The translations under genes were made by a program, and so were the position numbers. Of a stretch of 64,000 nt of DNA, positions 50,077 to 60,482 are shown in pieces. The number at the start of each line of letters is the position of its first letter. The stretch's first letter is position 1. The DNA is from Streptomyces sp. NBC_01241 (GTDB lineage: Bacteria; Actinomycetota; Actinomycetes; Streptomycetales; Streptomycetaceae), in assembly GCF_041435435.1 (NCBI RefSeq), contig NZ_CP108495.1, positions 1 through 64,000 of the forward strand. Reading direction: 5' to 3'. A model generated the notes under the pieces. It saw only the letters and a list, made by a program, of their open reading frames with translations, was not told where the DNA came from and ran no database searches.

Positions 50077-50258
50077 GATCGGAAAGGTAAGCTCTCGATG
50101 AGTGGAAAGCAAGGTATCCATACATGGAAAGGCTTCGGAGATTGGGAGTGAGGCGCGTGCGCGGTTCTCGCGGTTCGGCGGCCCACGAGGAGCAGCGAAG
50201 CGTAGGTTGCGGAGGGCAGGATGACGCGCGTCCAGGACGGTGCACACAGGTGAGTGAG

Positions 50259-51245
50259 ATGGACTTCCAGCCGGTCGAGCGCTCTTCGGAAGAGTTTCAG
50301 CAGCCCCTGACAGCACGGGAGATCGAAGGGGTCTGTCGCCGGGCCTTCGGTCCCTCGGCCGTGGTGACCTCTGCGGTCGAGCTGGGCACGGGCATGTATA
50401 ACAACGTCTATCGCCTGACCCTGGCCGGGCAGCCCCAGCCTGTGATCCTGCGCGCCGCGCCACCGGAGAGCCGCCAGTTCCGCAGCGAACACCAGCTGAT
50501 GCGCAACGAGTACGCGAGCCAGCCCTGGCTGTCTGTGATCGCGCCGCTGATGCCGCAGGTGCTCGCCGCGGACTGGTCGCACGAGGTGATCACCCGGGAC
50601 TGGATGATCCAGACCCACCTGGAAGGCGTCCCGGCACCGGAGCACCTGGGGACGTACCCGCGTACCGCGTGGCCGACGTTCTTCCGGCAGATGGGAGCCG
50701 TCACCCGCTCCGTGCACGACGTGCGGGGCCCACACTTCGGGCCCGTCGGCGGACCGGGGCACGGGACGTGGAGCGAGGCCGTGATCACCTCGTTGGAGGA
50801 GATCGCCGCCGACCTGGACGGCGCCGGCCTGGACGCGGCCGACGTACGGAAGGTCGCCGCAGTGGCCGCGCACGACCGTGCCCTGCTCGACGAGGTCACC
50901 GAACCGAGGCTGCTGACCGGGGACCTGTGGACCGTCAACGCTCTGATGGACCCGGCAGCCCCGGAGCCGGTGATCACTGGGGTGCTGGACTTCGACCGGA
51001 CATGGTTCGGTGACCCGGCCGCTGACTGGACCATCCGCATGGCCACGGCCAAGGAGGACGAGCGGACCGCGTTCTGGGATTCCTACGGTGCGCCGGACCG
51101 ATCGCCCGCAGCGGTGTGGCGGGCACGGGTCTACGAGGCCCGGCACCTGGGCGCGATCCGCCTTGAGCGCCACCGGCTGGCCAAGGTGGACGCGGTCCGC
51201 GACAGCTACGGCGCGATGGCCGAGGTGCTCGCCGGCCTGACCTGA
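50259..51245 (+). CDS. Aminoglycoside phosphotransferase-family kinase (328 aa)
   Basis: The APH fold is shown by ELGTGMYNNVYRLTLAGQPQPVILRAAP in the N-lobe, the catalytic loop LLTGDLWTVNALMD (Asp, with the usual His replaced by Thr) and the metal-binding DFDRTWFGDPAADW. The start is ATG 50259 after CAGGTGAG; GTG 50250 is an alternative. The 3' end overlaps the convergent ATP-grasp gene by 40 bp. It could phosphorylate the cluster product for self-resistance or act as a tailoring kinase; both are inferences. Confidence 0.8.
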   Translation: MDFQPVERSSEEFQQPLTAREIEGVCRRAFGPSAVVTSAVELGTGMYNNVYRLTLAGQPQPVILRAAPPESRQFRSEHQLMRNEYASQPWLSVIAPLMPQVLAADWSHEVITRDWMIQTHLEGVPAPEHLGTYPRTAWPTFFRQMGAVTRSVHDVRGPHFGPVGGPGHGTWSEAVITSLEEIAADLDGAGLDAADVRKVAAVAAHDRALLDEVTEPRLLTGDLWTVNALMDPAAPEPVITGVLDFDRTWFGDPAADWTIRMATAKEDERTAFWDSYGAPDRSPAAVWRARVYEARHLGAIRLERHRLAKVDAVRDSYGAMAEVLAGLT

Positions 51246-52498
51246 CCGGTGTTCTCCGGAGCCGGTTCCACGTGGATACGGACCCGCCGCAGGAGAGCGT
51301 CGGCCCGCTCCTCGACCTCATCGGCATCAAGGCCGGTGACCACGAACGACCCCAGCCGGTGACCGTTGGCGCCCGGCTCGCGGACGAGGCCGCCGATTGC
51401 CGCACGCCAGCGGACGAACGGAACGCCCGGCCCCGTCCGCGGGAAGCCGTAGAGCGACGTCAGCCGCCCGGCGTGCGGACTGGTCACGAACCGCACGGCT
51501 GCATATCCGAGGGCGGAAGGGGCGAGCGCGGCCGGACGGCCGAGGGCGACATCGAGCAGCGCCGCCCACACATCGATGCCCAGGGCGTGCTGGATCAGGA
51601 GCCCGATCTGCCCGGCGCCGAGGCGGGCGCCGATCTCGATGACCATGCACCGCCCATCCCCACTGACGATGACCTCTGTGTGCGAGGCCCCGTGCCTGAT
51701 CCCAGCCGCGCGGATGGCCGCTTCCACCTCCCGGTACACGGCCGCCTGGATGGCCGGGGGTAGGGAGACGGGCAGGCTGTGGCCCGTCTCCACCCTCTTC
51801 GCGCCGCCGGTCACCTGCTTCCGGGTCACGGCGAGGTGCGTCGTGGCACCGCCCTGCGTGAAGGACTCGACGCTGTACTCCGTCCCGGCGGCGTACGCCT
51901 GGACCAGAAGGCCCGAGTCGCCACCGCTCCCATACATGCCCACTGACTCACGGGCGACATCGGCGGCCGCGCTCGCGCCGACCGCGTCGGTCACCACCGT
52001 GACGCCGGCGGAGCCCGCCCCGGACCGCGGCTTGACCACGCACGGGAAGCCGACCCGGGGGTCTGCCAGCGCCGCCCGCAGTTCAGCATCGCTTCGAACG
52101 AGGACCGTGTGCGGGGCGCGGACCCCGGCCGCCGTGAACGCCCCGGCCATGGCGGCCTTGTCCCGGGCCGCTCCTGCCCGGACCGGATCGTTGCCGGGCA
52201 CCCCCAACTCGGCGCATAGCCGCGCGGCGAGTTCGGTCAGGTACTCGTTCACGGTCAGCACCGCGCCGACACCGCGGCGGCGCGCGAACGCGGCGATTTC
52301 GTCGAGAGCCCGGCCGGGCCGGGCGAAGTCGGTGACGACCCGCCCGGCCAGCAGACCCTTCAACTCCGGCCTGTAGTCCGCGTACGCCGCGGCGGTGGTC
52401 GCGGCGTGGACCTGGTGCCCGCGGGCGGCGGCCGCCGTGGCGAGGAGACCCGCCTCGGGGCCGGCCGCGTCCAGCAACAGCACGCCCGGGAGGCTCAC
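51206..52498 (-). CDS. ATP-grasp ligase (430 aa)
   Basis: It is expected to join a carboxylate to an amine using ATP. A preATP-grasp Rossmann part (VLLLDAAGPEAGLLATAAAARGHQVH) leads to the ATP-grasp core: FPCVVKPRSGAGSAGVTVV (ATP-binding Lys), then MVIEIGARLGAGQIG with metal-binding Glu and Asn/Arg-type residues. The GTG at 52498 overlaps the amidinotransferase stop by 4 bp, so the two are coupled. It is the last gene of the pentapeptide operon and may add an amino acid or couple the guanidino group to the peptide. Confidence 0.88.
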   Translation of the reverse strand: MSLPGVLLLDAAGPEAGLLATAAAARGHQVHAATTAAAYADYRPELKGLLAGRVVTDFARPGRALDEIAAFARRRGVGAVLTVNEYLTELAARLCAELGVPGNDPVRAGAARDKAAMAGAFTAAGVRAPHTVLVRSDAELRAALADPRVGFPCVVKPRSGAGSAGVTVVTDAVGASAAADVARESVGMYGSGGDSGLLVQAYAAGTEYSVESFTQGGATTHLAVTRKQVTGGAKRVETGHSLPVSLPPAIQAAVYREVEAAIRAAGIRHGASHTEVIVSGDGRCMVIEIGARLGAGQIGLLIQHALGIDVWAALLDVALGRPAALAPSALGYAAVRFVTSPHAGRLTSLYGFPRTGPGVPFVRWRAAIGGLVREPGANGHRLGSFVVTGLDADEVEERADALLRRVRIHVEPAPENTGQVRPASTSAIAP

Positions 52499-53646
52499 GA
52501 CAGGTAGTCCTCGAAGCCGCCGGTGCGGCGGGTGTCCAGCGTGAAGCAGTGGAAGCCGCCCCCGAACAGGCGCCGGTGCCGGTGCCGTACGGGCACCACG
52601 TCGAAGCCCTCGGCCTCCAGCAGCTTGACCAGGCCGGTGCACTCCTCGTTGACCAACACCGTGTGCTCGTCGACGGAGAGCACGTTGAGGTCGATGTACG
52701 GACTGGTGAGGACCAGGTCCTCGTAGTCGTCGTACACCGGGAACGCGCCCGCGTCCGGCTCCGGCGGCACGAGGTAGCGCCACGAGCGCAGCGGCTCGGG
52801 CATCAGGTCCCGGATGCCGTCGTGGCGGGCCAGGAAGACCCCGGGCTTCAGGGCAAGCACCATGCTGTCGATGTGGTTGTCCGCCATCCGCCACACCCGG
52901 TGGACGCGGTACTCGTGGCCGAGATGCCTCTCCAGCCACTCGGCACCCCGGGTGTGGTTCTCCTGCGCGACGTTGACGACCAGGTCGCGGCCCAGCCGCA
53001 GCACCTGCGCGCCGTCCAGCATCATCTCCACACCGACGTCGTACGGGCTCGGCCGCGGGTCCTCGATGGCTTCCGTCGGCCCGCCCAGGGTGGTCGCGGT
53101 GTCCCGGGCATACGACAGGTCGAACGAGTTGTCGGTGAGGGTCGGGCGGGGCATCGTCGTCCACCGCGCACCCTCCTCCCAGTAGGCATTGAAGACGGGG
53201 GAGAGGAGCCGGGTCTCCAGGTAGCGGGAGCGGATCGCGGGCGGAGTCTCGATGATCTGGTTGCCGAGGATCAGCGTGTTGTCCCGGACGTTCAACGCCG
53301 GGGTCGGGGCAGCCTCCCACCCCAGGCCCGCGATGTTCTTCGCGTCCGGGGGAAGGGGCAGCGGCCGGTGCACGGCGACCCCGAGACCGGCGAGGACGTC
53401 CGCCAGGGCCTCCACGTCCTCGTGCAGCTCCTCGGCGTACCGCGCCTTGATGGCCCAGCTCTCCCGGTGGCCGGCCGCCGCCTTCGTCAGGCGCGGATAG
53501 GCCCAGTCCGACCGGAAGCCCTTCAGGTTCTCGTGGTGGAACAGCTCGAAACTGACGTCGCGGTCGTGCCCTACGTAGTTGGCGGCGGACCCGACGATGA
53601 CCTCCTGGAGCGGCGTGAAGTCGTCGTGACTGTTCAGGCGGGGCAT
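52495..53646 (-). CDS. Amidinotransferase, StrB1/glycine amidinotransferase family (383 aa)
   Basis: The enzyme would move an amidino group from arginine to an amine, making a guanidino group. Active-site features are the catalytic Cys367 in GGGFHCFTLDTRR, His258 in DNHIDSM and Asp211 in EMMLDGAQ, the usual Cys-His-Asp set. MPRLNSHDDFTPLQEVIVGSA matches the family N-terminus. ATG 53646 follows CGAGAGGAACGCCC. The substrate cannot be told from sequence; a modified amino acid for peptide capping is the likely one in this operon. Confidence 0.92.
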   Translation of the reverse strand: MPRLNSHDDFTPLQEVIVGSAANYVGHDRDVSFELFHHENLKGFRSDWAYPRLTKAAAGHRESWAIKARYAEELHEDVEALADVLAGLGVAVHRPLPLPPDAKNIAGLGWEAAPTPALNVRDNTLILGNQIIETPPAIRSRYLETRLLSPVFNAYWEEGARWTTMPRPTLTDNSFDLSYARDTATTLGGPTEAIEDPRPSPYDVGVEMMLDGAQVLRLGRDLVVNVAQENHTRGAEWLERHLGHEYRVHRVWRMADNHIDSMVLALKPGVFLARHDGIRDLMPEPLRSWRYLVPPEPDAGAFPVYDDYEDLVLTSPYIDLNVLSVDEHTVLVNEECTGLVKLLEAEGFDVVPVRHRHRRLFGGGFHCFTLDTRRTGGFEDYLS

Positions 53647-53675
53647 GGGCGTTCCTCTCGGGAGTGCGGTGCGGG

Positions 53676-54647
53676 TCAGGGGGTGCGGGGCGCTGCGGTC
53701 ACATGCCGGTCGGCAAGGGCGCGGCCGCGGCGGACCCGCAGGGTCAGGCCGGTGCCGTCCTTGTCCGGCTGGAGGGTGCGCTGCTCGCTCCAGCCGGAGA
53801 ACCGGAACTCGGTGCCATCGGCCGGGACGAGGGCGAAGGTGCGCCCGGCGATCGTCAGGGCGAGGACGCCGTCGGCGCGGTCGATGCGGGCGGGAATGAG
53901 GGAGCCGTCCAGCGGGGCGGGTGCGTCGAAGTCCGCGAACCCGGACGGCAGCAGCGCCTCGTACGGCAGTCCACCGGGCCATGCGGGGGCATCGGCCGGG
54001 CTCGTGTGGTTGAGCAGGATCTCGCCGTGGGTCAGCAGGTCCTGCCAGGAGTCGGGGAACCAGGCTGCGAGGTCGGCGGTGAGCAGGGCGTCGATCACGA
54101 CGTGGACCCGGGTCACCGTCTGGCTGGTGTTGCGCACCAGGTGCTCGCGGGAGAAGTCGCCGTACCAGCAGGTGCCCGGCTGCCAGCAGTGTTCGACGCC
54201 GTCCAGGACTAGGACGGCGCCCGGGTCGGTGACCACGGGGATGTGCAGGCGCACGATGCCCCGGTCCAGGCGGTACTTGGGGTCGCAGTGCGGGTTCGAG
54301 ACGGCTCCCGGCCCCAGCGCCATCAAGCGCACTGCGTTCAGCGGGGCGGGGACCGAGTCCAGGACCTCCGCGAGGTAGGGCAGGTGGTCGAGCCAGCGCG
54401 TCGCCTTGAACGGCTCCGGCCCGGGGCCGCCCGGGTCGGTGCGCTCCGGATCACCGCCGAGGCTGCGCAGGGGCAGGACCCGCCAGTCGATCGCGGCGGG
54501 CTGGCCGACCTGTCCGCCGAAGGTATGGGTGCGTTGCACGTTCCAGGTGTGGGCGGTGACGGCCGCGAGTTCGGCGGCCAGCCGTTCGGAGTCGAAGACG
54601 GGAAGGAGCTGGGCGGCCTCGGCGGCCGCCGTGAGCGAGGTGGTCAT
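53676..54647 (-). CDS. Aspartyl/asparaginyl beta-hydroxylase family protein (323 aa)
   Basis: An Fe(II)/2-oxoglutarate oxygenase of the AspH type: SNPHCDPKYRLDRGIVRLHIPVV holds His120 and the Arg/His strand, and REHLVRNTSQTVTRVHVVIDALL holds the second His and the Arg that binds 2-oxoglutarate. An added C-terminal domain of about 120 residues (ALLPSGFADFDAP and onward) is unrecognised. Asp4 of the MSYDH precursor is an attractive substrate, as is a free amino acid. The next gene start is 29 bp away. Confidence 0.85.
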   Translation of the reverse strand: MTTSLTAAAEAAQLLPVFDSERLAAELAAVTAHTWNVQRTHTFGGQVGQPAAIDWRVLPLRSLGGDPERTDPGGPGPEPFKATRWLDHLPYLAEVLDSVPAPLNAVRLMALGPGAVSNPHCDPKYRLDRGIVRLHIPVVTDPGAVLVLDGVEHCWQPGTCWYGDFSREHLVRNTSQTVTRVHVVIDALLTADLAAWFPDSWQDLLTHGEILLNHTSPADAPAWPGGLPYEALLPSGFADFDAPAPLDGSLIPARIDRADGVLALTIAGRTFALVPADGTEFRFSGWSEQRTLQPDKDGTGLTLRVRRGRALADRHVTAAPRTP

Positions 54648-54661
54648 GGGTGGACTCCTGG

Positions 54662-56068
54662 TCAGGAGGAGAAGGACACGGCGCCGGTGCCGATGTGCTG
54701 GCTGGCGTCGTAGGTGCCGGCGGGCACACTCGCGAACCGCGCGTCGAGCCGGTCGAAGGTGCCCGTGTAGCCCTCGGCGGGGTCGTAGGCGAGGCAGAAC
54801 ACGAACTGCACCGGCTCCCCGGGGCCCAGGGGGATGGCGGGCATCGAGACGATCACCCCGGTCCGGGTGGCCGGATCGTAGGCCAGGCCCAGCTCGTCGA
54901 GCGCGGCCAGGAAGGCGGTGAAGGAGGGCACCGACCAGGTGGGCGGGACGTGGTACTCGACCACCTGCCGGGCCGGGGCGGCAGTGACGTCGACGATGCC
55001 GTGGGCGATCGACTGGTAGATGTGCAAGGACCCGGAGACCTGGGCGTTGACCTCCGTGAACACCACGCTCCCGTCGGGCAGGACCAGGGCGTCCGCGCTC
55101 AGGTGCCCGCGGTAGCCGAACGCCCGGTACGCGTCGGCCAGCAGGGCCCCGCCTTCCAGCAACGCCGCTCGCGTCGGCTCCGTGACGCCGTCGAGCGGCA
55201 CGACCTGGTGGCTCAGGCGCCGCCCGACGTACAGCAGGCGCCCCGTCTCAGTGGCCCGGGTGCCGCCGTCAGAGGCGTAGTGCTCGGAGTACACCGCGTC
55301 GGCGCCGGGCGCGAACTCCTCGATGACGACCGGCCAGCGGTCTTCCCCGCTCGCCCACGGCCACCGCTCGGCCCAGTACGCGGCTATGCCGTCCGCGCCC
55401 GGGGCGAGGTGGTGCAGGTGCCGGGCACCGACGTGATCCACGGCCATCCCCGGGTCGCGTACGAGGAGCTGGTTGCCGACGCCGGCCCCGTTGTGGGCCT
55501 GCTTGACCACGACGGCCCCAGACGCGGAGTCCTTCAGCAACGCGCCGGTCGCTTCGGTCGCTTCGGCGAGGCTGCGGCAGATGCGGCCCGGCAGGATCGG
55601 CACCCCGGCCGCCGCCGCCACGGCCCGGAAATTCGCCTTGTTGTTCCCGATCTCCCCACCGCCCTGCCCGAAGAACGCCGCGCCCGGGAAGCGGTCGGAC
55701 AAGCCCAGGGCGTCGGCGAGCCGCGCCACGGCGGCCGAAGGCCACAGCGCGAACACCTCGCTCGCCGCCCCCGGCCCGGCCGGACCGAGCGCGGCCCGCA
55801 CCTGCTCCACGAACGCGGGCACGGTCAGGGAGGAGGGATCAAGTAGCCGGTCCCCCCAGGCGCCGGGCGGCGCGGTCAGCACGGTCACGTCCTCGCGCTT
55901 CACGCCGGTGTGGGTCAGGGCGTAGTCGACGAACTCCGCATCCGGCTCGCAGCACAGGATGAGCAGGTCACCCGGGCGAGCGAACCAGAGCAGTCGCTGG
56001 GTCCAGGCCCGCATGTCGTGGCGCTCGCGGATGGACGGATCAATGTGGTTGCCGATGAGGATGCGCAC
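54662..56068 (-). CDS. PreATP-grasp domain ligase, PGM1 type (468 aa)
   Basis: The N-terminus, RILIGNHIDPSIRERHDMRAWTQRLLWFARPGDLLILCCEPDAEFVDYALTHTGVKRE, fits the preATP-grasp family that includes PGM1, the pheganomycin ligase which joins a guanidino phenylglycine to ribosomal peptides. The ATP-grasp core has GNNKANFRAVAAAAGVPILPG, GAVVVKQAHNGAGVGNQLLV and VFTEVNAQVSGSLHIYQ. The GTG at 56068 follows CTGGAGTCCGCT. It would ligate a modified amino acid to the processed pentapeptide. Confidence 0.88.
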   Translation of the reverse strand: MRILIGNHIDPSIRERHDMRAWTQRLLWFARPGDLLILCCEPDAEFVDYALTHTGVKREDVTVLTAPPGAWGDRLLDPSSLTVPAFVEQVRAALGPAGPGAASEVFALWPSAAVARLADALGLSDRFPGAAFFGQGGGEIGNNKANFRAVAAAAGVPILPGRICRSLAEATEATGALLKDSASGAVVVKQAHNGAGVGNQLLVRDPGMAVDHVGARHLHHLAPGADGIAAYWAERWPWASGEDRWPVVIEEFAPGADAVYSEHYASDGGTRATETGRLLYVGRRLSHQVVPLDGVTEPTRAALLEGGALLADAYRAFGYRGHLSADALVLPDGSVVFTEVNAQVSGSLHIYQSIAHGIVDVTAAPARQVVEYHVPPTWSVPSFTAFLAALDELGLAYDPATRTGVIVSMPAIPLGPGEPVQFVFCLAYDPAEGYTGTFDRLDARFASVPAGTYDASQHIGTGAVSFSS

Positions 56069-56094: not shown

Positions 56095-57264
56095 TCAGGG
56101 GAGGAGGAGAGCGGGCAGCGTGTCGAAGACCCGCATGGTCGCCGTGCGGCGCCGCACCCCGTCGCCAGCCGCGGCCAGCCGGGCGGGATGGTCGTTCAGC
56201 GCCGCGACCAGGGCGCGCAGCCCTGCCTGGGCAACGGTCGTTCCGATGCAGGCGTGCGGCCCCCATCCGTAGCCGAGATGAGGGTTCGGGGAACGGTCCA
56301 GCACCAGCTCGTTGGCCCGCACGAAGGCATCCGGATCGCGGTTGGCCGCCGCGAACAAGGGGACGACCTTCTGCCCCGCCTTGATGTCGACGCCGCCGAT
56401 CCGGCAGGGGTACACGGCCGTGCGGGTGGTGCCCTGCACCGGCCCGTCGAAGCGCACCAGCTCGTCCACGCCCGTGGCCAGCAGCGCCGGGTCCCGCATC
56501 TGTTCAAGGGCTCCGGGGTGGGCGAGGAGGGTGTGCACGGCGTTGCCGACGGCAGCCGCCATCGTGCTGTAGCCGCCCTGGAACATCACCCGTGCCGTGT
56601 TCTTCACGTACAGCCGACTCGGCGCATCGGAGTCGGGAGCCGCCGCCTTCCGCACCTGGGCCAGCAGGCCGGGCCGGGCCGAGGCCGTGAACCAGGAGTC
56701 GACCAGGTCGCTCAACTGCTGCCGGGCGATGCGGCCCGGCTCGACCAGCGCCGGGTTGAGGCCGCCGTCCATGCTCCGCATGATCGCGTCCGACACCGCG
56801 GCGAACTCCTCGTACGGCGGGGGCTCGACGCCGAGCAGGTCGGCCACGACTGCCACGGACAGCGGCACCGCAATCTCGGCCATCACATCGAACGTGCCGA
56901 CCCCGGCCAGCTGGTCGAGCCGTTCGCGCAGCAGCCGGCGGGCGCGGCTCTCGACACCGGTCAGGTCCTGGGCACGCAGCGCGGTCATGAACAGCGAGCG
57001 GACGTGGCTCTGCTGCGGGGGATCGAGCGTCTGCACGCTCAAGGACGGCTCCGGCACCGTGCCCCCGGTGCGCCGCGGGTCGCGGGCGAAAGACGCGTGG
57101 TCGCGCAGTACGCGCACGCTGTCCGCGTACCGGGTCAGCGCCCACGAGCCCATGCCTGTGTGCCAGAACACCGGCTGACGGTCGCGCAGTTCGGCCAGCA
57201 CCAGGTACGGGTCGCGCAGGATCTCCGCGGCCAAGGGGTCATAGCGGTCAGTCACGGACGGCAT
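56095..57264 (-). CDS. Cytochrome P450, likely Tyr-His cross-linking (389 aa)
   Basis: P450 marks are the heme-binding HLGYGWGPHACIG with Cys339 (Tyr replaces the usual Phe), ELVR (268-271) and an I-helix with MFQGGYST instead of AGxxT. The C-helix reads DPPQQSHVRSLF. ATG 57264 follows CTGGAGAGGACCCGCG. It lies 68 bp after the MSYDH gene. In biarylitide clusters the adjacent P450 forms the crosslink between Tyr3 and His5 of an MxYxH pentapeptide, and by analogy this is its expected reaction. Confidence 0.9.
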   Translation of the reverse strand: MPSVTDRYDPLAAEILRDPYLVLAELRDRQPVFWHTGMGSWALTRYADSVRVLRDHASFARDPRRTGGTVPEPSLSVQTLDPPQQSHVRSLFMTALRAQDLTGVESRARRLLRERLDQLAGVGTFDVMAEIAVPLSVAVVADLLGVEPPPYEEFAAVSDAIMRSMDGGLNPALVEPGRIARQQLSDLVDSWFTASARPGLLAQVRKAAAPDSDAPSRLYVKNTARVMFQGGYSTMAAAVGNAVHTLLAHPGALEQMRDPALLATGVDELVRFDGPVQGTTRTAVYPCRIGGVDIKAGQKVVPLFAAANRDPDAFVRANELVLDRSPNPHLGYGWGPHACIGTTVAQAGLRALVAALNDHPARLAAAGDGVRRRTATMRVFDTLPALLLP

Positions 57265-57332
57265 CGCGGGTCCTCTCCAGAGCGGGAGAGGCGGGCCCGC
57301 CGCAGCAGGCCCGCCCCGGGGGTTCCTCGGAA

Positions 57333-57350
57333 TCAGTGGTCGTACGACAT
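57333..57350 (-). CDS. bytA-like: Pentapeptide precursor MSYDH, biarylitide-type
   Basis: An 18-bp reading frame (ATG TCG TAC GAC CAC TGA on the minus strand) is preceded by GGGAGGGG at 5 bp, an excellent ribosome-binding site. The peptide fits MxYxH, the substrate form of biarylitide pentapeptides such as MRYYH, with Ser replacing Arg2. A P450 gene follows at 68 bp on the same strand, as in those clusters. In-frame codons extend upstream to 57521, so a longer precursor ending in MSYDH cannot be excluded, but the SD favours the five-residue form. Confidence 0.75.
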   Translation of the reverse strand: MSYDH

Positions 57351-57634
57351 GGCGACCCCTCCCTGTGCGTCGGTGGTGGTGGCGTCCGGCGGTGATGAAG
57401 GCTCCGGTCGGGCCCTCGCTCGCCAGGCGGGGGAGACGCAGCCCGGCGAGCGGGACAAGGCCGTAGGGAACGGATTCGTCGCCGCGCTCCGCCCGCTCAC
57501 GCGGGGTGCCGGGCGGAACACGACGAGTACAGCGGGCGCCAGCCCCGGGGCACAGAGGAAACCCCTATCCCCGCCCTATCCCCGGTCTTCTGGAACGGCT
57601 CTCCCGGGCGCGGAGAGGGTGGTGCAATGGGTGG
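57351..57634. promoter_or_regulatory. Divergent control region of the pentapeptide cluster
   Basis: The region lies between the minus-strand MSYDH gene and the plus-strand regulator. A tandem direct repeat, CCCTATCCCC (57563-57572 and 57574-57583, one base apart), is the most distinct element and may be the regulator's binding site. No confident -10/-35 pair was found. Confidence 0.4.
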
Positions 57635-58954
57635 GTGGACGACGAAATCCGCCACCCCCTCGCGCACGCCAGGAACGAGCGCGGATGGTCGCAGGAGGAG
57701 CTGGCCCGCCGTATCCGGCAGGCCGCCGCGCGTCGCGGCCTGCGCTCAGGAACCAGAGGATCGCGGGTCTCCAAATGGGAGACCGGCCGCGCCGAACCCG
57801 ACGAAGACGAGTCCCAGCCGCTCATCGCCGAGGTATTCGGCATCGACTACGCGGCCGTCGCTCATCTCGGCTGGCCCAACTGGCTCCCGGGCCAGGACAT
57901 GCCGCTGCCCTTGGGGCCGCACAACGCCGTTCCCTCACTCCGAGAGGCCCTGATGACCTCCCTGGACCGCCGGTCGTTCATCGCCTACACCAGCGGATCG
58001 CTGGCCGCTCTCGCCCACCAATGGGCCGTCACCGAGCCAAGCCGGTTTGCACGTTTCGCCGCCCCCAGTGAAGTCGATGCCGAGATGCTCGACTGGCTGG
58101 AGGGGACCGGGGCGGAGCTGATCCGCCTCGCCACCGAACGCAGGCGCCGAACCCGCCATCTGCTCGACGCGCACCTGAACACCGTCACCGAGTTCATCAG
58201 CGAGTCCCGCTACACCTCGGCCGCCGGGCAGCGGCTGCACACCCTGGCCGCTTCTCTCTCGCAGGCCATCGCCTGGCAGCACTTCGACGAACGCCGCCAC
58301 GCTTCCGCCGGCCGCTTCTGGCACGCCGCTCTCCACAACGCCCACACCGCCCATCAGCGCGACCTCGGCGCGGGCATCCTCTCCGACCTCGCGTACCAAC
58401 TGCTGTGGCTCAAGGACGCCCGCACCGCGGCGGCCATCCTCGAACACGCCATCCCCCGCACCCAACACCCTGCGGCACGGTCCCTCCTTCACCTGCGCCA
58501 GGCCCGCGCCCTCGCCGTCCTGGACGAGAACGGTCTGTGCCGCCGGGCCCTCACCGCCGCAGAGAAGGCCCTCGACACTCCTTCGTACGACCCGGCCCCT
58601 GCCTGGTGTTCCTGGATGTCACACGCGGACCTGGCCGCAGACAGCGGCCGCTGCCTCGCGGACCTTGGTCAGCACCGCCAAGCCCACCAACTCATGGACG
58701 AGGGCATTGCCCTGCTGCCCGTCACCCGCTCCAAGACCAGGTCCGTGTTCCTGACCTACCAGGCCGAGACCTACCTGCGGGACGGCGAACCCGACATCGC
58801 CGCCGAGACAGCCACACGCTCCCTCGACCTCGCCAGCCGCATCGATGCTCCCCGGTGCGTGACGATGATCCGGGACCTGGAGCCGGAGCTCTCGCGGTAC
58901 GCCCAGAGCCCCCCTGTCGCCGAGCTGCTCGAACGGCTCCGCGCTACCGGCTGA
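57635..58954 (+). CDS. XRE/TPR-type pathway regulator (439 aa)
   Basis: The N-terminal HTH lies at about residues 5-60 (LAHARNERGWSQEELARRIRQ, GSRVSKWETGRAEPDEDE). A conserved helix, SLDRRSFIAYTSGSLAALA, follows, then a C-terminal TPR array (ARALAVLDENGLCRRALTAAEKAL, QAETYLRDGEPDIAAETATRSLDLA). Such regulators control Streptomyces biosynthetic clusters. It is divergent from the pentapeptide operon. The GTG at 57635 is tentative; upstream in-frame text is not protein-like. Confidence 0.75.
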   Translation: MDDEIRHPLAHARNERGWSQEELARRIRQAAARRGLRSGTRGSRVSKWETGRAEPDEDESQPLIAEVFGIDYAAVAHLGWPNWLPGQDMPLPLGPHNAVPSLREALMTSLDRRSFIAYTSGSLAALAHQWAVTEPSRFARFAAPSEVDAEMLDWLEGTGAELIRLATERRRRTRHLLDAHLNTVTEFISESRYTSAAGQRLHTLAASLSQAIAWQHFDERRHASAGRFWHAALHNAHTAHQRDLGAGILSDLAYQLLWLKDARTAAAILEHAIPRTQHPAARSLLHLRQARALAVLDENGLCRRALTAAEKALDTPSYDPAPAWCSWMSHADLAADSGRCLADLGQHRQAHQLMDEGIALLPVTRSKTRSVFLTYQAETYLRDGEPDIAAETATRSLDLASRIDAPRCVTMIRDLEPELSRYAQSPPVAELLERLRATG

Positions 58955-58989: not shown

Positions 58990-59032
58990 CTACCTGTACG
59001 TCCACGCCGGAGGTGCGAACCTCCGCAGGTAG
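58990..59032. other. Nested inverted repeats before the recombinase operon
   Basis: An outer pair, CTACCTG (58990-58996) and CAGGTAG (59026-59032), encloses an inner hairpin, GGAGGT-GCGA-ACCTCC (59009-59024). It may be a terminator for the regulator gene or a recombination site for the nearby recombinase. Sequence alone does not decide. Confidence 0.4.
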
Positions 59033-59061
59033 CTTTGGGGATCGAGAGCAAGGAGGGGCAC

Positions 59062-59385
59062 ATGACCGACGGGGAAACCGCCCTGAAGTTCCAGATGATC
59101 GTCCAGGACGAGGCAGCCCTGGACCGCGACCGCGCTCTGGTCGTCTTCCTCAAGGCCCGGATCGCCGAGCGGGCGAAGGCAGCGGGCGAGGAAGAGGAGC
59201 GTCTTCTGGCTGGGGTCCACCGGAGCCTGCTGGAGTTCGAGGAGAAGTTCGAGCACCCGCACCGCGACGACGACCGGCACAGCTTCTTCGCCGGGCAGAT
59301 GCAGGCTCTCGGCTGGTCACTTCGCTGTATCGCCTTCGCCGCGTTCTCCGGGCACCCGGACTTCCGGCAGGACTTCCGGCCGTGA
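59062..59385 (+). CDS. Small hypothetical protein coupled to recombinase (107 aa)
   Basis: The ATG follows AAGGAGGGGCAC, a near-ideal ribosome-binding site. The protein is helical and charged (DRALVVFLKARIAERAKAAGEEEERLL, LEFEEKFEHPHRDDDRHSFF) and ends GHPDFRQDFRP. The stop overlaps the recombinase ATG. It might be a recombination accessory factor, but no DNA-binding motif is visible. Confidence 0.55.
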   Translation: MTDGETALKFQMIVQDEAALDRDRALVVFLKARIAERAKAAGEEEERLLAGVHRSLLEFEEKFEHPHRDDDRHSFFAGQMQALGWSLRCIAFAAFSGHPDFRQDFRP

Positions 59386-60482
59386 TGCCCCGCCCGGAAG
59401 TCGCCCAGCGTCCTGCCGGCGACGTCATGCGGGCGCCGACCCGGGCGGAGGACGCCTTTGCCAAGATCCGCGAGGATCTCGGGCAGGTGGCCCCGCGCGA
59501 CCCGAAGGACCGCAAACTGGGACCGCGCCGCTACCGCATGGACATCCTGCGCGACATCTGCACGGCCGAGGCGTTCACCACCGTCATGAGCTGGCTCGCG
59601 TCCTCCACGATTCCCAGCATCAACACCAAGCGGAACTATGCCGACGACCTGCGGTTCTGGCATGGATTCGCCCAAGAGCTCGGGCACGATCGGTTCTACA
59701 TCGGGTGCATCACCCGCGGGGACGTGACGACCTGGCGGCTCAGCGAGGAGAAGCGAGAGCGAGCGAACCGCAGCATCGCCCGCCGCCTGTCCGCACTGTC
59801 CTCGCTGACGGCGTTCGCCGCCGAGGAGTCGCAGACCTACATCCCCAACCCGGTCACCCGCCACAACCGGCCGAAGATCGACCGGCACGACGAGACCACC
59901 GCCACCCCGATGCTGGAGGTCGACGAGTTCGCATCTCTCTTCGATTGGGCGGAGTGCCTGCGCGACGTCGTCGTGACGTCGCTCGTCTACACCTTCGCCG
60001 GCCGCGTCAGCGAATGGTGCGAGGCCGACGTCGCCGACTTCCGCGACGGCCGCAAGCCCGTGATCGACCTGACCCGCAAGGGCAACAAGGGCAGGCGGTG
60101 GGACGTCCCCCACATGCTCGCCGAGCTCTTGGTCCTCCTCATCGACGGCCGGACCAAGGGGCCGCTGCTCGTCGACTCCGAAGGCCGCCGCCTGGACCGC
60201 CACGACGTCGACCGCATCCTCACCCGGCTCGGGAAGCGGGCGGGAGTCCTCACCGGCCGCGACCTGACCCCGCACGTGCTGCGGGTCAGCCGCCTGACCC
60301 ACATGCATGACGATGCCACGCCGCTGGAGGAGATCCAGGAGTTCGCTGGACACGACGATCCAGCGACGACGCTTTCCTACATCCGCCGCCGTGGCGACCA
60401 GGAGCGCCGGGCCCGGCACGCGACCGCCGGTGTCGACAAGATCAGCAAGCAGCTGGGGCGCTGGCTCACCCTCGCGGCCTGA
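59385..60482 (+). CDS. Tyrosine recombinase/integrase (365 aa)
   Basis: The N-terminal SAM-like domain is TVMSWLASSTIPSINTKRNYADDLRFWHGFA. The catalytic domain has the full set: Arg in YTFAGRVSEWCEADV, Lys in LTRKGNKGRR, HxxR in TPHVLRVSRLTH, His in EFAGHDD and Tyr in TLSYIRRR. It should therefore be active. The ATG overlaps the preceding stop (TGATG). It may integrate or excise the element or the adjacent biosynthetic island, or resolve plasmid multimers. Confidence 0.9.
   Translation: MPRPEVAQRPAGDVMRAPTRAEDAFAKIREDLGQVAPRDPKDRKLGPRRYRMDILRDICTAEAFTTVMSWLASSTIPSINTKRNYADDLRFWHGFAQELGHDRFYIGCITRGDVTTWRLSEEKRERANRSIARRLSALSSLTAFAAEESQTYIPNPVTRHNRPKIDRHDETTATPMLEVDEFASLFDWAECLRDVVVTSLVYTFAGRVSEWCEADVADFRDGRKPVIDLTRKGNKGRRWDVPHMLAELLVLLIDGRTKGPLLVDSEGRRLDRHDVDRILTRLGKRAGVLTGRDLTPHVLRVSRLTHMHDDATPLEEIQEFAGHDDPATTLSYIRRRGDQERRARHATAGVDKISKQLGRWLTLAA

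Follow-up and report, generated by a model that had tools for sequence, protein, structure and literature searches.

The closest described systems are the biarylitide clusters (bytA/bytO), with which the locus analysed here shares an 18-bp MxYxH gene beside a P450 of the RufO/P450Blt kind, an aspartate at position 4 and a homologue of the Pgm1 ligase. A study of July 2026 (PMC13417212) reported 277 biarylitide clusters, 47 of which combined a homologue of the Pgm1 ligase with Asp at position 4. We found no product of this Asp4/Pgm1 group reported in the accessible parts of the biarylitide literature, and the accessible main text of PMC13417212 contains no mention of MSYDH, of a phosphotransferase or of a hairpin. 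Compared with what that text gives for the group, the present locus differs in detail only, by adding the full gene order, a convergent APH kinase, a stem-loop and a glutamine in the I helix of the P450. A literature search for MSYDH returned one match, an unrelated abbreviation, and searches for MFYDH, MTYDH, MRYDH, MxYDH, MGYDH and MRYDHCL returned none.

The sav cluster of Saccharothrix variisporea (MRYVH) resembles the locus in its pentapeptide, P450, amidinotransferase and Asp/Asn beta-hydroxylase, but it has a valine at position 4 and was described with only two tailoring enzymes and without a ligase; its YVH product was reported at m/z 458 (PMC13417212). The mass that we calculated for plain cross-linked YVH is 416.19, and the published value is 42 above it. 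N-acetylation occurs in other biarylitides and explains this increment, while the mass expected with an amidino group is almost identical (the two additions differ by only 0.011). The YVH cluster has an amidinotransferase gene.

The tailoring genes of the locus point to another known system, the pheganomycin pathway, in which Pgm1 couples a small core peptide with a guanidino amino acid (PMC8939145). Homologues of the amidinotransferase and of the ATP-grasp ligase of this pathway are also encoded in thiovarsolin clusters, and deletion of these two genes left thiovarsolin production unaffected (PMC6511847).

The MSYDH gene

The window, that is, the whole stretch of DNA that was analysed, comprises the first 64,000 bases of contig C2. 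The full length of C2 is only 119,238 bases, which places the cluster on a plasmid-sized replicon. The features at the start of the predicted operon were as follows.

57356 to 57363, minus strand: putative purine-rich ribosome-binding site GGGAGGGG, read from the sequence; relatives have purine-rich runs at the same place
57333 to 57350, minus strand: predicted 18-bp precursor gene, MSYDH, supported by the sequence, by conservation and by a shuffle test
56095 to 57264, minus strand: cytochrome P450 (bytO homologue), predicted Tyr3-His5 cross-linker

The preliminary description had recognised an MSYDH frame on the minus strand, a ribosome site five bases before its ATG and a P450 gene 68 bp downstream on the same strand, and a second reading confirmed all of these. 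The minus strand from 57350 to 57333 reads ATG TCG TAC GAC CAC TGA (MSYDH and stop), GGGAGGGG at 57363-57356 is separated from the ATG by five bases, and the P450 gene begins with an ATG at 57264, 68 bp after the precursor stop codon. The pattern ATGNNNTAYNNNCAYTGA (ATG-NNN-Tyr-NNN-His-TGA) occurred a single time on the two strands of the 64-kb window and in none of 100 dinucleotide shuffles of it. When a GG ten bases before the ATG was added to the pattern, two occurrences were found in the whole genome of 8,979,200 bases. The second of these encodes MAYRH and lies on contig C1 (G000:C1:899036-899065, minus strand).

A longer precursor ending in MSYDH was considered and rejected: in related loci the frame upstream of the ATG was open for 6 to 196 codons (just 6 in L019 and L022) and its translation was unconserved. 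Since the upstream in-frame sequence is neither equally open nor conserved, the 18-bp gene most likely starts at the ATG at 57350. Genes of 18 bp slip past gene finders, so that copies are left unannotated.

Conservation of the pentapeptide

One scan of genome contigs with the P450 of the window yielded 22 loci with homologues of 58-88% identity. The test set beforehand was whether homologous P450 loci keep an MxYxH frame with a ribosome site, and they did so in 22 of 22 cases, each frame being MxYDH and lying upstream of the P450; no locus of at least 58% identity had retained the P450 and lost the pentapeptide. The variants were MSYDH (16 loci), MFYDH (four, one of them with a GTG start), MTYDH (one) and MRYDH (one), and the distance from the end of the frame to the first aligned codon of the P450 was 61-116 bases. 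No second frame of the form M-x-aromatic-x-aromatic/His was present in the 600 bases searched at each of the 22 loci. The claim that MSYDH is a new precursor variant must be given up: it is the pentapeptide of 16 of the 22 relatives, and the Asp4/Pgm1 group of 47 clusters has been published (PMC13417212).

The DNA around the pentapeptide gene has drifted while the 18-bp block has stayed similar. In 11 divergent loci the mean pairwise ungapped identity of this block was 0.90, as against 0.28-0.47 in five neighbouring 18-bp blocks, the highest of which (0.47) is the block that holds the ribosome site. Codons also varied within the gene, the relatives having one TAT codon for tyrosine, both TCG and TCC for serine, and one TAA stop. 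Residues 3 to 5 (Tyr-Asp-His) were fixed, and residue 2 was S, F, T, R or G. The MSYDH gene is now backed by comparison between loci and not only by eye.

The search was widened to 392 Streptomyces genomes, 31 of which, including the strain's own, had a P450 match with an E of 1e-75 or lower. Among the 30 loci other than our own, which went down to about 39% identity, 27 had a candidate precursor of five or seven residues with a ribosome site; the stretch searched was about 4 kb per locus, or 14-15 kb for five of them. Nine of the 27 are MxYDH loci of the window's group, and seven of these nine look to have been counted already among the 22 records described above. The candidates in the other, more distant loci were MSYDH, MTYDH, MRYDHCL, MRYAY, MRYIH, MRYIY, MRYLH and MKYWH. 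In L052, L056 and L057, the other three of the 30, no candidate was found in the 4-kb stretch. Of 396 genomes sampled evenly from the phylum, three had a P450 match, the strain's own among them.

Three properties that mark a biarylitide were found at the locus: a five-residue precursor of the MxYxH/MxYxY form encoded by an 18-bp gene, a tight coupling of this gene (68 bp) to a P450 of the biarylitide kind, and a pairing of P450 and precursor that is kept across species (22/22 loci, and 27/30 Streptomyces loci in the wider set). We consider it very probable that the MSYDH gene encodes the precursor peptide of a biarylitide-type RiPP cluster belonging to the Asp4/Pgm1 group, carried on the 119-kb plasmid-sized contig. 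The cluster fits the Asp4/Pgm1 group as described in the accessible text of PMC13417212, and that of our strain may be one of the 47 clusters counted there.

The P450 and the expected cross-link

The ten PDB sequences closest to the P450 (E 2e-77 to 4e-67) included RufO (8spp, 9duj) and P450Blt (8u2m), and the next PDB sequence was at 6e-40. RufO and P450Blt both act on MRYLH (PMC12186263). This kinship, together with the MxYDH frames of the 22 loci, supports the earlier reading of MSYDH as a biarylitide-type precursor.

The specificity of P450Blt is controlled by the I-helix residues A231, H234 and E238; His234 has been linked to C-N bond formation, and the double mutant A231V-H234L formed a C-C link on the reversed substrate His-Leu-Tyr (PMC10929621). 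Alignment through RufO placed Val, Gln and Ser at the positions of A231, H234 and E238 in the P450 of the window, and the glutamine (Q229) was kept in 25 of 25 relatives. With Gln in place of the His234 of P450Blt, a C-C link between Tyr and His is to be expected, so that the predicted cross-link is most likely of this type; the prediction draws on a single residue and a single engineered enzyme, assayed with a reversed substrate.

RufO, the P450 of the rufomycin pathway, also acts on a ribosomal pentapeptide (PMC12186263) and is among the closest solved relatives of our P450, which raises the alternative that the latter nitrates Tyr3 and that MSYDH is a carrier for nitrotyrosine. However, RufO nitrates with NO supplied by a nitric oxide synthase, and a search of the whole genome of our strain for this enzyme (PF02898) gave 0 matches, while the control search was positive in 2 of 14 named genomes. 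The absence of the synthase makes nitration unlikely and led us to reject this route. The I-helix motif also differs (FQGGYST, as against FHAGFEV in RufO), and no NRPS was found among the eight ORFs scanned. Nitration is, in our estimation, the least credible of the readings considered, with hardly any probability left to it.

Stem-loop downstream of the precursor gene

The spacer between the precursor gene and the P450 gene contained a further element.

57288 to 57317, minus strand: 13-bp GC-rich stem-loop directly 3' of the precursor gene, without a T-run

The hairpin (57317-57288) had a folding energy of -31.5 kcal/mol and a z of -5.2, and the whole 68-base spacer had a z of -2.5. A stem finder identified a stem, 9-18 bp long, in all of 23 loci, at each of which at most 4 of 200 shuffles were as good. 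The stem score of the 75 bases after the precursor stop was at least 30 in 25/26 loci; in the control, made on the 75 bases after the stops of other genes, this score was reached for the P450 in 3/26, for the ligase in 0/26, for the hydroxylase in 0/22 and for the amidinotransferase in 0/26. Comparison of stem arms showed a pairing of 0.99 for arms of the same locus and of 0.55 for arms of different loci; the stem is thus preserved although the sequence that forms it varies. Between positions 51000 and 59000 of the window, no Rfam match to the stem-loop was obtained up to E 0.1, and a consensus scan of 57200-57700 detected no intrinsic terminator with a T-run. The myxarylin paper (PMC8708641) lists a supplementary figure that shows a secondary structure predicted for the bytA-bytO spacer next to a transcription terminator, so the idea of a stem-loop here is not wholly new.

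Stems also follow the MRYIH, MRYIY, MRYAY and MRYLH precursors and the MNYNH precursor of Bacillus, and no more than 1 of 200 shuffles equalled each of them. The shuffle test on 18 loci, which left out L036 and L047, gave at most 1 of 200 shuffles as good in 13 loci, four of which belong to the window's own group, and 28-86 of 200 in the other five, all MKYWH. The stem-loop as a mark of every biarylitide gene is unsupported, only one of six MKYWH loci passing the shuffle test. Should it hold as a marker in most groups, it would allow such genes to be located in raw DNA by a second feature in addition to the P450.

The stem-loop begins 11-28 bases past the first base of the precursor stop codon in 26 loci, and the frame lies just upstream of the P450 in 22. 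Such an arrangement could also be that of a regulatory leader peptide, MSYDH being no substrate and its translation near the stem-loop tuning transcription of the P450 operon by attenuation. The frame, however, has no run of regulatory codons, and its Tyr-Asp-His is fixed while residue 2 varies. The frame and its stem-loop are located downstream of the P450 in L043/L062, L066 and L029, where no attenuation is possible; the stem thus goes with the precursor gene. Related pentapeptides, moreover, are proven P450 substrates (PMC12186263, PMC12951456). We regard a leader peptide as very improbable and retain the precursor reading.

Tailoring genes

The other genes of the locus were the following.

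54662 to 56068, minus strand: Pgm1-type ATP-grasp peptide ligase (PreAtp-grasp + PGM1_C), GTG start
53676 to 54647, minus strand: oxygenase of the aspartyl/asparaginyl beta-hydroxylase family
52495 to 53649, minus strand: amidinotransferase of the StrB1/AGAT type
51206 to 52483, minus strand: ATP-grasp ligase of the L-amino-acid-ligase type (ATP-grasp_4, LAL_C2), start approximate
50124 to 51245, plus strand: convergent APH-family phosphotransferase, true start probably near 50250
57506 to 58954, plus strand: divergent ORF of an NsdA-family regulator, true start probably near 57636

From the precursor gene onwards, the order is P450, Pgm1-type ligase, beta-hydroxylase, amidinotransferase, second ATP-grasp and convergent APH-type kinase. 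The P450, the Pgm1-type ligase, the amidinotransferase, the second ATP-grasp and the kinase were matched in 22 of 22 loci (in L010 the kinase match covers its last third only, and the gene breaks in L026 are runs of N), and the regulator was absent from some related loci. The beta-hydroxylase was found in 20 of the 22 loci and is missing from L020 and L022; it is therefore not needed in every pathway. Its action on Asp4 as a fixed rule is weakened, L020 and L022 keeping Asp4 without it and the sav cluster having it with Val4.

The best PDB match of the Pgm1-type ligase was Pgm1 itself (3wvq, E 4e-76), and the protein matched PF18604 and PF18105. The amidinotransferase matched StrB1 and AGAT, and its aligned Cys368, His259 and Asp222 were kept in 25/25 relatives, as was the heme Cys of the P450 (25/25); the aligned His pair of the hydroxylase was kept in the 23/23 relatives that have the gene. 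We take all of these to be catalytic positions. The ligase and the amidinotransferase are what the locus has in common with the pheganomycin pathway. It differs from that pathway in its core, which is a five-residue biarylitide precursor, and in its building blocks, as no phenylglycine-type building-block gene was recognised by Pfam among the eight ORFs around the cluster, two of which matched no family.

An extra gene was present between the last ATP-grasp gene and the kinase gene in 11 of the 22 loci, and the window has none. This slot holds a SAM methyltransferase in six loci and another protein family in five, five of the 11 having been assigned with Pfam and the rest by eye. Two members of the latter family were scanned (L009:14110-15114 and L018:14017-14988, with counterparts in L019, L020 and L022) and had no Pfam match.

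The Pgm1-type ligase was also searched for in the 392 Streptomyces genomes and matched at 22 places in 21 of them, the strain's own included. In the stretches of 3.4-4.4 kb around these places, 11 had a precursor candidate (all MxYDH, our own among them) and 11 had none. Two of the latter, L080 and L081, are in genomes whose MRYDHCL lies outside the stretch. Among the other nine, eight ligases are just 36-42% identical and L089 is a 138-residue match at 74%; the eight low identities indicate a ligase family that is wider than the biarylitide clusters. The seven-residue MRYDHCL was encoded in L064 and L065, about 126 bases before the P450, with a ribosome site and a stem-loop, and genes for a Pgm1-type ligase, an ATP-grasp enzyme and an amidinotransferase of 27% identity lie in the same clusters. 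The predicted MRYDHCL is the pentapeptide lengthened by a tail of Cys-Leu.

Proposed pathway

In the pathway that we propose, the 18-bp gene would be translated to MSYDH, as its conservation suggests, and the P450 would join the side chains of Tyr3 and His5, most likely carbon to carbon. Met-Ser would then be removed by a host peptidase. The amidinotransferase would use arginine to form a guanidino group, the acceptor most likely being a small carboxylic acid, and the Pgm1-type ligase would couple the resulting guanidino acid to the freed amine of Tyr, in the manner of Pgm1 in pheganomycin. A further unit may be added by the second ATP-grasp enzyme, and the hydroxylase and the APH-family kinase may decorate or silence the product, the kinase serving either to protect the producer or to phosphorylate the product. 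The stem-loop probably raises the precursor mRNA over the enzyme mRNA, by partial termination or by protection of the 3' end. The capping chemistry, which is argued from analogy, is put forward tentatively, as a possibility that falls a little short of probable. For the candidate products, [M+H]+ values of 432.1514 (cross-linked YDH), 448.1463 (its hydroxylated form), 474.1619 (N-acetyl), 474.1732 (amidino) and 531.1946 (guanidinoacetyl) were calculated, the acetyl and amidino forms being 0.0112 apart.

Comparison with the sav cluster, which gave only cross-linked YVH (PMC13417212), suggests a simpler outcome, namely a plain and perhaps N-acetylated YDH biarylitide, the other enzymes serving a separate small-molecule pathway. 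This would also suit L062 and L066, two MSYDH loci with more distant P450s in which no Pgm1-type ligase or amidinotransferase was found within 14-15 kb. The tailoring genes, however, stand in one order beside the precursor in 22 loci, the hydroxylase excepted in two, and the published association of Pgm1 homologues is with Asp4 precursors (PMC13417212). We judge the plain product to be unlikely, if less so than a leader peptide.

A fuller and more novel reading has two parts, taken jointly. One is that the product may be a hybrid of the biarylitide and pheganomycin types, with a cyclic Tyr-Asp-His scaffold to which two ATP-grasp ligases add a guanidino building block after translation, and with the kinase as a guard. 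The other is that the 18-bp genes of most groups looked at may each have their own stem-loop, which would set the ratio of precursor to enzyme. To this combination we would give somewhat less than an even chance. The complete and repeatedly conserved gene set, together with the expected type of cross-link, gives a defined route to the first product of the group.

Other observations

The same cluster was found on three plasmid records of other Streptomyces. The plasmid of S. xanthii has an annotated tyrosine-type recombinase, located a few kb upstream of the cluster. In the window, the ORF at 59013-60482 (plus strand), beyond the divergent regulator, looks by eye like a tyrosine recombinase/integrase.

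On a plasmid of Bacillus arachidis (NZ_CP127373.1, L029:8213), MNYNH is encoded downstream of a P450 of about 41% identity, with a good ribosome site and a 13-bp stem-loop. The neighbouring genes include two ATP-grasp genes, a PLP enzyme and a gene of the formylglycine-generating-enzyme family.

Elsewhere in the genome of our strain, two P450 matches with the same scores and opposite orientation were located on contig C1 (G000:C1 37396-38325 and 8818638-8819567). They lie almost equidistant from the two ends of this contig of 8,856,951 bases, as expected of the long terminal inverted repeats of a linear chromosome.
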